DNA of 46,414 nt from Bacteroidales bacterium (GTDB lineage: Bacteria; Bacteroidota; Bacteroidia; Bacteroidales; P3). A program made the translations under genes and the position numbers. Position 1 is the stretch's first letter. Every line of letters begins with the position of its first letter. The notes beneath the pieces are model-generated. The model saw only the letters and a program-made list of their open reading frames with translations, made no database searches and had not been told where the DNA came from. Positions 8,795 through 45,247 of the stretch are shown here, piece by piece. The stretch is from NCBI GenBank assembly GCA_016283745.1, contig JAEENM010000014.1:1-46414 (forward strand), written 5' to 3'.

Positions 8795-9185
8795 GGGGCT
8801 GACCGGTTTTGACAGCAAGGATAATGGGTATGTAAGCATGCAGGTTCAGGCATCAACAACCTCAATAAGGGATGCGAAACAATAATTGGCGAAAATACTT
8901 ACGCTCTTGCTGCCTAACCGAAGCATAGTAGGTTAGCTTAATCCTGCCCACAGTGGGTGGGACAAGACATCTCCCGCCGACCTCGCCCGTCGGTAGGCGA
9001 CCAGGAGGTGCTCGTGAGTACGGGATAGCAGCGTGTATTCCCCGCCCGCGCTGTAAAATTTTAGGGGATAAGGTCGGATTTGGGTGTCTTTGTCCGGGTC
9101 CGGCTCGAAAACCAATCAAAGAATAAGCATGTAGAAAGCGTATTTGTTACTTGTTTGGACGGCGGTTCGACTCCGCCCAGCTCCA
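8795..9185 (+). ncRNA. ssrA: Transfer-messenger RNA (tmRNA), tag GENTYALAA
   Basis: 5' GGGGCUGACCGGUUUUGACA; 3' GGUUCGACUCCGCCCAGCUCCA; acceptor GGGGCUG/CAGCUCC; tag ORF GGC GAA AAT ACT TAC GCT CTT GCT GCC TAA at 8888-8917. Confidence 0.97.
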
Positions 9186-9210
9186 CTAGGGAAATGAACT
9201 TTCCTTTGCA

Positions 9211-17799: not shown

Positions 17800-18813
17800 A
17801 TGGACGACAAACAAAACATAATCATTTATCGCACCGCCGACGGCAAGGCTGCCGTGTCGCTGATGACCAAGGACGGAATGATTTGGCTCAACCAACAGCA
17901 GATGGCAGAACTTTTTGCCACCTCGAAGCCAAATATCAGTATGCACATAGCTAATATATTGAAAGAAGGCGAGTTAAACGCCGATTCAGTTATTAAGAAT
18001 TACTTAACAACTGCCACCGACGGGAAACAGTACAACGTAGTTTTTTATTCATTGGAGATGATTCTGGCAGTTGGCTATCGTGTTCGGGGTGTGCGTGGCA
18101 CACAGTTCCGCCAGTGGGCTACACAGCATCTTTCGGAATATCTTGTCAAAGGCTTTACTATGGATGACCAGCGGCTGAAAAATCCCGACGGACGTCCCGA
18201 CTATTTCGACGAACTGCTCGAACGCATACGCGATATCCGTGCATCGGAAAAACGTTTCTACCAAAAAATACGCGACCTATTTGCACTCAGTAGCGACTAC
18301 GACAAGGACGACAAAGCAACTCAGATGTTTTTCGCCGAAACGCAGAACAAACTCCTGTATGCCGTAACCCACCAAACTGCCGCCGAACTAATATGTGCCA
18401 GAGCCGATGCCGACAAACCCAATATGGGACTTACAGCATGGAAAGGCAATATTGTTCGCAAGGGCGATGTTACGATAGCAAAAAATTACCTTCAAAAAGA
18501 CGAAATCAACAACCTGAACAGATTGGTGGATATTTTTCTTACCTCAGCAGAAATGCGAGTCGGCGACCGACACGACCTGACACTCGAATACTGGCGGAAA
18601 AATGTGGACAATCTCTTGATGTTCCAAGAGAAAGACATACTGCACAGCAAAGGATCTATTTCCAATGCCGAGATGGAAAAACTGGTACATCAGCAGTACG
18701 ATCAATTCAACGAACGACGCAAACACTACGAAGCGGAAATTGCCGATGCAGAAGATATTAAAGAACTCGAAGAATTGGAGAAATCCTTGCAAAAAAGAGA
18801 CTCGAAAGGATAA
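17800..18813 (+). CDS. RhuM family (virulence RhuM-type) protein
   Basis: KDGMIWLNQQQMAELFATSKPNISMHIANIL ... VVFYSLEMILAVGYRVRGVRGTQFRQWATQHLSEYLVKGFTMDDQRLKNP. Confidence 0.9.
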   Translation: MDDKQNIIIYRTADGKAAVSLMTKDGMIWLNQQQMAELFATSKPNISMHIANILKEGELNADSVIKNYLTTATDGKQYNVVFYSLEMILAVGYRVRGVRGTQFRQWATQHLSEYLVKGFTMDDQRLKNPDGRPDYFDELLERIRDIRASEKRFYQKIRDLFALSSDYDKDDKATQMFFAETQNKLLYAVTHQTAAELICARADADKPNMGLTAWKGNIVRKGDVTIAKNYLQKDEINNLNRLVDIFLTSAEMRVGDRHDLTLEYWRKNVDNLLMFQEKDILHSKGSISNAEMEKLVHQQYDQFNERRKHYEAEIADAEDIKELEELEKSLQKRDSKG

Positions 18814-19092: not shown

Positions 19093-19473
19093 ATGATTAA
19101 AGCACACAACCTATTCAAAATGACCTGCCATCTGGCTGGAAGACAATATCATGATGCCGACTTAGTATGGGAGTACCTCCGTATTGGCAAAGAAGTAAGA
19201 CTAGAACGCGACATTGACAACCCGCACGATCCGTATGCCGTTGCTGTGATTTTCGAAAAAGACGGAGAGGATTACCTTATTGGATACCTGCCAAGGGGCG
19301 AAAACAAAGAGATGGCAGAAATGCTCGAGATGGGATGGGGCTGCTGCTACCGCACCGTTATCAGTTCGATTAACCCCGAGACAAGTCCCGAACATCAAGT
19401 TCACCTAACCATCAGCATACGACGCAACAACATGGAGAAAGCTCCTGAAAAAGGTAGCAAAAAAAGCAAATGA
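19093..19473 (+). CDS. HIRAN domain-containing protein
   Basis: CHLAGRQYHDADLVWEYLRIGKEVRLERDIDNPHDPYAVAVIFEKDGEDYLIGYLPRGENKEMAEML. Confidence 0.82.
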   Translation: MIKAHNLFKMTCHLAGRQYHDADLVWEYLRIGKEVRLERDIDNPHDPYAVAVIFEKDGEDYLIGYLPRGENKEMAEMLEMGWGCCYRTVISSINPETSPEHQVHLTISIRRNNMEKAPEKGSKKSK

Positions 19474-19718: not shown

Positions 19719-19749
19719 TTTGTTTAAACTGAAAAAAGTTGTATCTTTG
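19719..19749 (+). promoter_or_regulatory. Bacteroidetes-type promoter upstream of the structured leader of the R-M operon
   Basis: TTTG (19719-19722)-N19-TATCTTTG (19742-19749). Confidence 0.75.
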
Positions 19750-19845
19750 CAAACGTAATTAGTAACAATAAAAACAGTAAAAATATAGACAGAAACAAAG
19801 TAGAATAGAATCAACATATTAACGCAAAGCGCTTTGCTTTTCAAG

Positions 19846-19958
19846 GTGTACGGAAAACTCGACACTTTCTATACTATCACTCAAGAAAGCAGAACGCTCA
19901 CGGTAATCCGTGAGCTTTCTTGTTTGTGATAGTAGGTCGTCGAGAAACCTCCGTACAC
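19846..19958 (+). ncRNA. Putative structured RNA: long multi-segment hairpin between promoter and methyltransferase gene
   Basis: Nested pairing GTGTACGG/CCGTACAC, CTCGAC/GTCGAG, TACTATCAC/GTGATAGTA, CAAGAAAG/CTTTCTTG, GCTCACGG/CCGTGAGC with TAAT apical loop. Confidence 0.6.
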
Positions 19959-20024
19959 AACAGAGAGTTTCACGGTTTTTTTTAGTGTTACATAGAAGAG
20001 CATTGGCTATGAAACACTGAAACG

Positions 20025-21878
20025 ATGAGGTATATAGGCTGTAAAGATTCTTTAATTAATACTATTCAAAATCTTTTTGAAACCAAGCATTTGAATAGAG
20101 ATGGTCTTACTTTATTTGATGCCTTTTGTGGTACTGGTTCTGTTGCATATAATTTTAAAAATTTGTTTAATCTCGTTCTAAATGACAATTTACATTTCGC
20201 AACAACGTTCGCAAGTGGACGAATTTTTGCTTCGAGATGTAATTTTAGTGCTTTAGGTTTCAACCCCTTTGAATACTTCAACAGAAACGATAATCAAGAA
20301 ACAGGTTTTTTCTCCAAAAATTACGCTCCCAAAAATTCTGGAAGAATGTATTTTTCTGACTGGAATGCGGGAAGAATAGACTATTTTCGTCATCAAATAC
20401 AAGCTTGGTACGATTCAAACAATATAAATTATGAAGAATATTGTTATCTTTTGAGTGCTTTGATGGAATCGGTTTCACACGTGGCAAATGTAGCTGGTGT
20501 TTATGGAGCATTTTTAAAAACTTGGGATCCACGAGCTATTAAAAAGATTGTATTTATACCACCAGCAGAGGCAAACCTCTTATCCTTTTTTGACAACACA
20601 CACAATGTTAGAGTAATAAATGGAAATGTTGAAGACGTCATTGAAAGCGTAAATTGTGATATTTTATATTTAGACCCACCATACACAAAAAATTCTTATT
20701 CAGTACAATATCACATCCTTGAAACATTAATTTTAAATGATAATCCGACTTTAAAAGGTGTTACAGGAGCACGTCATTATGAGAATATTTCCAACGATTG
20801 GTCTAAACCAAACAAAGTCGAGGTGCAATTTGACAAAGTCTTAGCAAAAACCCAAGCTTCTCATATTGTATTTAGCTATAGTAGCGATGGACTAATGTCC
20901 AAGGAGTATATTTTATATGCGATGAAAAGGTATTGTTTAGAAGATAGCGTTAGTTGCGATGAGGTATCCTATAAACGATATAAAAACTATAAAACCGAAG
21001 ATAAACAAGGTCATAAAGAGTATTTGTTCTATGGGCAAAAAAAACCTATTGCACAGGTAAGATATTATTGCCCTCTAAATTATATGGGTGGAAAATCCCC
21101 AATCATAGATTTTATAAAGCCTAATTTAACAGAGAAAAGAAAGTTTGTAGACTTGTTGGGAGGTGGTTTTAATGTTGGAATCAACACGGATGGTTTTGAA
21201 CAAGTAATATATAATGATATCAATTTTGCCGTTGCAAATATAATTAAAATGTTCAGAAATGCAGATACATCCACATTGCTAACATTTATAGGAAAGACAA
21301 TAAAAAAATATAACCTTGAAAAAAGCAATAAAGATGCATATTTAAAAATACGTGAAGATTACAACAGAAAATATCGTGACACGGAGTTGGGTTTTTGGTA
21401 TTTATTTGTGGTTATACTCTATGGATTCCAACAGCAACTCAGATTTAATTCAAATTATGAATTCAACAATCCTGTAGGTGAAAGTGGATTTAGCGACTCT
21501 ATAAAAGAAAAAATAGTTTCATTCTCTCGTAGAATAAAAGAGTTGAATGTAATCTTTGAAATAGGAGACTATCAGAAGATTGATCATCTAATCGATGCAG
21601 ACACACTAGTATATGCAGATCCTCCATACATCATCACACTTGGCAGCTATAATGATGGGAAAAGAGGTTTTAAGGGGTGGAATTCAGACGAAGAAGAACG
21701 TTTGTTAACATACCTTGACATTTTAGTGAACAGAGGCTGTAAAGTCGTAATATCAAATGTTTTAGAATATAAGGGCTTGCGGAATACTCAACTTTTCCAT
21801 TGGATTGAAAATCACAATGTTGTTATACAACAAACAACCTTTAGGGGAAGAAACGAAACATTAATAATATCTCTATAA
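20025..21878 (+). CDS. Fused tandem D12-class N6-adenine DNA methyltransferase
   Basis: Two complete motif sets: MRYIGCKDSLI/FDAFCGTGSV/DILYLDPPY and LNYMGGKSPIIDF/FVDLLGGGFNV/LVYADPPY in one 617-aa protein. Confidence 0.9.
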   Translation: MRYIGCKDSLINTIQNLFETKHLNRDGLTLFDAFCGTGSVAYNFKNLFNLVLNDNLHFATTFASGRIFASRCNFSALGFNPFEYFNRNDNQETGFFSKNYAPKNSGRMYFSDWNAGRIDYFRHQIQAWYDSNNINYEEYCYLLSALMESVSHVANVAGVYGAFLKTWDPRAIKKIVFIPPAEANLLSFFDNTHNVRVINGNVEDVIESVNCDILYLDPPYTKNSYSVQYHILETLILNDNPTLKGVTGARHYENISNDWSKPNKVEVQFDKVLAKTQASHIVFSYSSDGLMSKEYILYAMKRYCLEDSVSCDEVSYKRYKNYKTEDKQGHKEYLFYGQKKPIAQVRYYCPLNYMGGKSPIIDFIKPNLTEKRKFVDLLGGGFNVGINTDGFEQVIYNDINFAVANIIKMFRNADTSTLLTFIGKTIKKYNLEKSNKDAYLKIREDYNRKYRDTELGFWYLFVVILYGFQQQLRFNSNYEFNNPVGESGFSDSIKEKIVSFSRRIKELNVIFEIGDYQKIDHLIDADTLVYADPPYIITLGSYNDGKRGFKGWNSDEEERLLTYLDILVNRGCKVVISNVLEYKGLRNTQLFHWIENHNVVIQQTTFRGRNETLIISL

Positions 21879-21879
21879 T

Positions 21880-23088
21880 ATGAAACCAAAATTTACAATA
21901 TGTCGTTTGGGTGCACAAAAAAAAGCTCAAAATGTAGATGAAATAATAACAAAATCGGTATTGCAAGATATTTGCAAACGACTTACTCACCAAGAGAAAT
22001 ATGATATTGATTGGGTGGAAGAAAGAATAAATGGAAAAATGTTCACCTTTGAGACAGATAATACCAAATACTACATTACATATACACTTAATAGAGTTGG
22101 AGGTCGAAACTCTTACCTTCAAAGTGTACCAACAGCTTTTGGGATTTTTATAAATGATGCTCTTTATAACACAAAAAAATCTTTGTTCTGTTTATACTTT
22201 ACGCATCATAATGGCAATAATCAAACACGCTACCACCAATTCATATATCGGTTACTTAAATCAATTGGAGTGTGTTTTATAAACTCTGATGAAGAATTGA
22301 AAGGCTTGAATGTTCAACCTTATGATAATGTAAAAGATTTAATATCTGATAGAGAATTCAATACCATACATAATAACTATAACCAGTCTTCTTATATAAC
22401 AGATGAGGGCTCATACTATCATGTGTATGGTAAAACTTTTGGAGCAAATCAAAAGGAAACAACAATGTTGTGTCTTGCACTTTGTGGTATTTCGGATAAA
22501 CCAATTCGACTTTTTCAAATTTCCGACAATGACAGTAAGTATTTAAGCGACACAGATATTGATGCAATTAAAACTTATGCTACTAAATTTAGCAAAGTCG
22601 GAATAGAAATTCTTGATGATACATACGAATTTGAAGATGATAATGAACAAGTTCCTATTAAAACGGATCCCCAATCCAGTCTTAGAAGTCCTCGCTTTAT
22701 ACTCAATTTGTTGGAAAAAACAGGTGGTCATAAAAGTTGTTCTCTATGTCAATGCGAAATTGAAAGTATAATTCAAGGAGCTCATATTTATCCTGTTCAA
22801 GCAATTAAACAACAAACTGATTTGTCTTTTGAAGAAAGGCTTAAAATGGCTACAGACAAAAACAATGGAATATGGCTTTGTGAAAATCATCACAAACTAT
22901 TTGATAGAGGATTAATACGTTTTGAGAATGGCAAATTAAAAATTATGCCCAAACTAAATGACAATGACAAAGAATTCGTTAATACCATTTCAACTATACA
23001 GGCAATCGATCAAAATTATTTTACTTCCAAAATGGCTGAATATTTCAAAAAAAGAGATGATTTCTATCGTTCTGAAAAATACTATTAA
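21880..23088 (+). CDS. HNH endonuclease, probable cognate restriction enzyme
   Basis: C-terminal HNH/zinc motif CSLCQCEI...GAHIYPVQA...NNGIWLCENHHKLFDRGLI; starts 1 nt after the methyltransferase stop. Confidence 0.82.
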   Translation: MKPKFTICRLGAQKKAQNVDEIITKSVLQDICKRLTHQEKYDIDWVEERINGKMFTFETDNTKYYITYTLNRVGGRNSYLQSVPTAFGIFINDALYNTKKSLFCLYFTHHNGNNQTRYHQFIYRLLKSIGVCFINSDEELKGLNVQPYDNVKDLISDREFNTIHNNYNQSSYITDEGSYYHVYGKTFGANQKETTMLCLALCGISDKPIRLFQISDNDSKYLSDTDIDAIKTYATKFSKVGIEILDDTYEFEDDNEQVPIKTDPQSSLRSPRFILNLLEKTGGHKSCSLCQCEIESIIQGAHIYPVQAIKQQTDLSFEERLKMATDKNNGIWLCENHHKLFDRGLIRFENGKLKIMPKLNDNDKEFVNTISTIQAIDQNYFTSKMAEYFKKRDDFYRSEKYY

Positions 23089-44965: not shown

Positions 44966-45041
44966 GCCGTCGGTTATAATACGGTTTCGGTTTACGATTC
45001 TGTTTCCCCTTTGTATTTCTTTTTTCTCTTGAAATATGAAG

Positions 45042-45247
45042 AAACATTCTGTGAATGTTTCGATAGCGTAGCGGAGAACAAATAAACATTCTGTGAATGT
45101 TTCGATAGCGTAGCGGAGAACAAATAAACATTCTGTGAATGTTTCGATAGCGTAGCGGAGAACAAATAAACATTCTGTGAATGTTTCGATAGCGTAGCGG
45201 AGAATTGACAAACATTCTGTGAATGTTTCGATAGCGCAGCGGAGAAA
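45042..45247. repeat. Five tandem copies of a 42-bp repeat, each with an AAACATTC-TGT-GAATGTTT hairpin
   Basis: Copies begin at 45042, 45084, 45126, 45168 and 45210 (exact 42-bp period); last copy diverges. Confidence 0.92.

Follow-up and report, generated by a model that had tools for sequence, protein, structure and literature searches.

What kind of element fills the stretch between the promoter and the first gene of a restriction-modification (R-M) operon in a Bacteroidales genome, and how might it act on the genes behind it? The window analysed here comprises 46,414 nucleotides (assembly GCA_016283745.1, contig JAEENM010000014.1). An undescribed structured RNA had been proposed at this locus, with a promoter, a five-helix hairpin, a palindrome and a U8 run, and all four features were found where the original prediction placed them or close by.

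The long hairpin and its operon

All features described here lie on the forward strand. The Bacteroidetes-type promoter, as read from the sequence, spans 19719–19749, with TTTG at 19719–19722, 19 nt, and the −7 box TATCTTTG at 19742–19749. It is followed by an A-rich unstructured leader (19757–19828), which contains the conserved motif ACATAT (19814–19819), and by a small hairpin, P0, with its linker (19829–19842). The long hairpin (19846–19958) consists of P1 (19846–19853/19951–19958), P2 (19858–19863/19939–19944), P3 (19872–19880/19926–19934), P4 (19882–19889/19915–19922) and P5 (19896–19903/19908–19915), the last closed by a TAAT loop (19904–19907). All five predicted helices are present, although P4 and P5 as quoted both use C19915, which only one of them can own. 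The folding energy of the hairpin is −65.2 kcal/mol, compared with −37.6 ± 4.2 kcal/mol for 200 dinucleotide shuffles (z = −6.6).

The first gene behind the leader encodes a double D12-type adenine DNA methyltransferase (20025–21878; Pfam MethyltransfD12, PADLOC MTase_II) and is followed by an HNH nuclease gene (21880–23088; Pfam HNH_2), presumed to be the cognate restriction enzyme. Directly upstream of the operon, a RhuM-family gene (17800–18813) and a HIRAN-domain gene (19093–19473) match the PADLOC candidate-defence entries PDC-S05 and PDC-M03B, which gives the locus the appearance of a small defence-like island. Elsewhere, the window holds an ordinary tmRNA gene (8795–9188) and a tandem repeat at about 44990–45215 that is readable in several frames (RYRNIHRMFICSPL / RYAIETFTECLFVL).

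The palindrome GCAAAGCGCTTTGC covers 19824–19837. Its perfect form is confined to the window copy, while other copies have a small hairpin GCGUUUUUGC at this place. Because they do not keep the palindrome, its reading as a protein-binding site was dropped.

No Rfam 15 family matched at the elements under either strict or permissive thresholds, in line with the proposed undescribed RNA ahead of an R-M operon. This also speaks against the suggested alternative of a 6S-like RNA, including 6S-Flavo. For a retron msr-msd, the other known RNA put forward for checking, the neighbours are wrong: the next gene in the window is the D12 methyltransferase, and no reverse transcriptase occurs among the 25 commonest downstream families.

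A multi-copy leader family in the Bacteroidia

The window hairpin belongs to a large 5′-leader RNA family without a match in Rfam 15. A DNA search brought up two further copies in the window's genome, diverged to 74% and 69% identity; a type I HsdM gene directly follows one of them, and an Mrr_cat_2/ResIII type ISP/IIG restriction gene follows the second. A covariance-model search (second model) gave 9 copies in the window's own genome, and 5–35 copies per genome in 15 genomes that were picked because they had matches.

In a first alignment of 11 copies from the window's genome and its relatives, built without structure, 25 of the 40 pairs showed compensatory double changes. Extending this to 100 copies (99 distinct), 96.5% of the pair cells were paired and 38 of the 40 pairs carried compensatory double changes, while the covariation score of the long hairpin was 0.700 vs at most 0.094 with the 3′ partners slid (99 distinct copies); this alignment was fitted to the model, so the counts lean towards the structure, yet the contrast is still very large. 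Covariation at homologous operons was the point on which the original prediction had staked itself, and the outcome is strongly in its favour.

A pattern scan of named genomes returned 106 stretches; among the matches listed, all belong to uncultured Bacteroidales, Bacteroidia or Bacteroidetes, one being named only bacterium F082. The first model matched 107 of 393 genomes of the order, and the second matched 69 of 295 genomes of the class and 24 of 248 genomes of the phylum, with only two matches outside the class, both weak; these totals are undercounts, since large searches evaluate only a few candidates in each genome, and the E-values are rough, the stronger matches alone having been inspected by eye. 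A diverged copy, found with another query, is located on a plasmid of Rhizosphaericola mali (order Chitinophagales; NZ_CP044017.1:15029–15149). BLASTN with the window copy gave no plasmid or phage match, and an exact pattern scan of viral contigs gave no match either. With a looser pattern, 18 viral contigs were obtained, 4 of which (IMG/VR) truly hold the element, and one of these copies adjoins integrase-like and terminase-like genes, as judged by eye.

The IMG/VR copies include L237:10272–10438 and L238:3777–3923, the latter flanked by an integrase-like gene and by early genes of the opposite strand. Many copies (L283–L287, L258 and L260; G385 and G027) lie no more than about 50–150 bases from the end of a contig, which would fit a downstream sequence that recurs in the genome. 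At L134:516–550, the Rfam DUF805b RNA (RF02914) is matched at gathering score, with the new element in the same locus.

Multiple copies spread over unrelated loci, many of them near the contig ends of draft genomes and some on a plasmid and in viral contigs, would also be expected of a mobile DNA element end or a repetitive palindrome (MITE, REP, transposon end or recombination site) that acts as DNA, an alternative already named for this hairpin. We consider this highly improbable. The copies are consistently oriented promoter-element-gene, their stems diverge with compensation that includes G-U pairs, the conserved terminator with its U-run is a property of RNA, and no transposase or integrase family is frequent beside them.

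Their position relative to promoters and genes is that of a 5′ leader, between a promoter box and a same-strand ORF. The −7 box TAnnTTTG stands upstream of 143 of 169 copies, mostly 60–100 nt from the element, as opposed to 40 in the reverse complement, 17 in shuffled and 14 of 163 in downstream controls. Within 30 nt 5′ of P0, 158 of 224 copies contain the motif ACATA, and this conserved single-stranded motif is a possible protein-binding site. The median distance from the element to the start codon of the same-strand ORF is 68.5 nt (142 downstream protein clusters), with the ORF chosen mechanically as the longest one starting within 500 nt.

An own promoter and a 3′ end capable of termination could equally belong to a stand-alone, trans-acting sRNA that ends at the U-run, the gene behind it being a mere neighbour. 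Such an RNA is very unlikely here, given how closely a same-strand gene follows most copies; in addition, the stems are too variable for a common target-pairing stretch to be evident, and a terminator at the U-run is missing from the most stable state.

The family is new relative to Rfam 15, and a literature search found no report of such a leader, with the alignments of GUCCY-hairpin, Bacteroides-2 and the HMP2 candidates lying outside the comparison. GUCCY-hairpin and Bacteroides-2 (PMC2864571) and the HMP2 palindromic candidates (PMC8040213) are likewise structured or palindromic RNA candidates from Bacteroidetes. They are not in Rfam and may be an earlier partial sighting of this family.

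Two exclusive pairings and a predicted terminator

What the original prediction overlooked is that the 3′ arm can instead pair with the tail, which makes a terminator. In the window copy, the tail TTTCACGG, which precedes the U-run, is able to base-pair with the 3′ strand of P5. The predicted terminator hairpin (state B; 19908–19975) pairs the 3′ arm (19908–19920) with the spacer and tail (19962–19975), and the U8 run (19976–19983), again taken from the sequence, lies immediately 3′ of its stem. Four segments can be distinguished: segment 1 would be the P0 3′ strand (19833–19841 in the window) plus the linker, segment 2 the 5′ arm, segment 3 the 3′ arm, and segment 4 the spacer plus the tail. 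The partner of segment 1 within segment 2 is 19885–19893. As judged from the alignments, these segments carry two conserved, mutually exclusive predicted pairings, either 2:3 or 1:2 plus 3:4.

Across 99 distinct copies, 92.5% of the cells between the tail and the P5 3′ strand are paired, including 59 double-change cells, compared with 23–48% paired in slid controls for this helix. In each of 300 shuffles, the own tails gave better pairing than swapped ones. For the whole 3′ arm against spacer plus tail, the own combinations gave −18.2 kcal/mol vs −14.9 ± 0.31 kcal/mol for swapped ones (0/500), and in the class-wide set −20.7 vs −17.0 ± 0.37 kcal/mol (0/500); for the 1:2 pairing (P0 3′ strand and linker with the P3/P4 5′ strands), the values were −10.1 vs −7.7 ± 0.25 (0/300) and, in a second set, −8.7 vs −6.0 ± 0.38 (0/300), where all swap tests keep the base composition and relatedness is reduced by clustering at 80% identity, not removed. 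The T content in the 7 nt after the terminator stem is 0.85 (98 copies). A conserved predicted intrinsic terminator with a U-run and a conserved antiterminator pairing that draws on the same strand are both present, as in an attenuator.

The tail resembles the P5 5′ strand, and its conservation could partly reflect another use, which counts against an attenuator. In three copies (L165, L139 and L175), the tail GAAGCCCAC pairs with GTGGGCTTT in a shifted register, and this is hard to square with a mere duplication of the P5 5′ strand. Two mini-hairpins, Ha (GAAAU/AUUUC) and Hb (AGGY/RCCU), each show one P2 strand; Ha is well supported (0/500) and Hb weakly (20/500). A kissing loop between them was considered, and both fit state B equally well.

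Based on these pairings, the R-M operon of the window probably carries in its 5′ leader a transcription attenuator that acts in cis, with termination itself being predicted. The 2:3 pairing, namely the long hairpin (state A), would act as the antiterminator: by withholding the 3′ arm from the terminator, it would allow the polymerase to read into the methyltransferase and HNH genes. The pairings 1:2 plus 3:4 (state B) would form a 5′ hairpin and then the full intrinsic terminator at the U-run, causing a stop ahead of the genes. For window positions 19820–19983, the free fold (state A) has −62.4 kcal/mol and the terminator-constrained fold (state B) −44.0 kcal/mol, and the median gap between the two states is 11.5 kcal/mol over 100 copies. 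Since state A is far more stable and the polymerase has finished the long hairpin before it reaches the tail, we infer read-through as the default, with a switch to off as the direction of control. With state B about 11 kcal/mol less stable (median), switching should need some agent. The operon would then be expected to switch off whenever a factor or condition keeps segment 1 paired with segment 2 or melts P1/P2.

This arrangement can be compared with known attenuators. In the trp-type four-segment attenuators, as in the present family, 1:2 and 3:4 (a terminator with a U-run) exclude 2:3. Unlike those, the window copy has no leader peptide with an ATG start: no ATG occurs between promoter and U-run, the first one not before 20009, and on ATG starts no short ORF covers segment 1. 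Furthermore, a single RNA family with tens of copies in a genome serves unrelated genes here. Riboswitches with intrinsic-terminator platforms share the structured 5′ leader, the exclusive folds and the conserved unpaired positions, but the genes behind the present family share no pathway, its stems are unusually variable, and no ligand is known. In antisense-controlled attenuators of the pT181/pIP501 type, read-through is the default and the terminator forms once the 5′ arm is occupied. The same default is proposed here, although no antisense RNA has been identified for the new family.

A different role of the leader would be processive antitermination, whereby the long hairpin binds the polymerase or an elongation factor, as a put-like RNA or through a NusG paralogue such as LoaP/UpxY, and lets transcription pass terminators within long accessory operons; the terminator at the U-run would then merely be the first one passed. 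In Bacillus, long operons have leader hairpins on which LoaP acts (PMC12691694), and this precedent, the large genes and operons behind the new leader, and the conserved P5 and ACATA motif as possible protein sites are in its favour. We nevertheless hold it to be unlikely, as processive antitermination alone does not require conserved exclusive pairings 1:2 and 3:4, and small downstream genes are served as well. The LoaP/UpxY-dependent leaders are the same in being leader hairpins before long accessory operons. They need a specialised NusG protein, whereas the new family has a covarying terminator switch.

Genes behind the leader and their possible joint control

At least 4 of the 9 copies in the window's genome lead R-M genes (the window copy, C137, C71 and C97). 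Among 124 downstream clusters, Pfam assigned N6_N4_Mtase to 6, N6_Mtase to 5 and ResIII to 4, next to BspA-type LRR_5 (9), T9SS tails (3), TonB plug (2) and sigma-70 (2), and D12 and EcoRI methylases were also present; PADLOC recognised methyltransferases of types I, II and III among the downstream genes. The R-M systems behind the RNA span types I, II, IIG and III. Counted by copies, a PLD-helicase similar to PADLOC C3a139/DrmD is the most frequent partner (55 of 243 copies). The genome-contig sample was drawn with the window-subfamily pattern, so that its gene counts are biased to this subfamily. In Bacteroidales of the rumen and other gut sites, the PLD-helicase (PLDc_2, SNF2, Helicase_C), e.g., L031:3106–6402, is the gene that most often follows the RNA. 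Among the 25 commonest families of genes upstream of the same elements, none of the R-M families listed above occurs. The upstream genes include other candidate defence genes, and the neighbourhoods are defence-rich too.

After this census of downstream genes, a function restricted to R-M systems was dropped. The original prediction of an RNA that controls R-M expression keeps its plausible controller; the proposed link to R-M genes gives way to a family that is not R-M-specific, has multiple copies per genome and is class-wide. C proteins such as Kpn2I control R-M expression (PMC6237814). These and the other known R-M regulators, namely antisense promoters, exert protein or antisense control on one system, unlike the new family, in which one leader RNA is common to R-M types I, II, IIG and III.

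More tentatively, the RNA might be the shared sensor of a global regulon, in which one signal, received by 5–35 paralogous leaders per genome, would jointly switch defence systems, surface proteins, sigma factors and even prophage or plasmid genes across the Bacteroidia through a terminator switch without a leader peptide. The downstream genes are too diverse to point to one signal, which also weighs against the attenuator.

The attenuator reading predicts that an RNA 3′ end maps to a known base and that compensating mutations turn the genes on or off. The covariance model permits annotation of the family across a class with many gut and environmental members. The finding bears on two open questions, how R-M genes are restrained and how large accessory gene sets are controlled in the Bacteroidia. 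A leader common to unrelated R-M types, surface proteins and mobile-element genes points to a common layer of post-initiation control.
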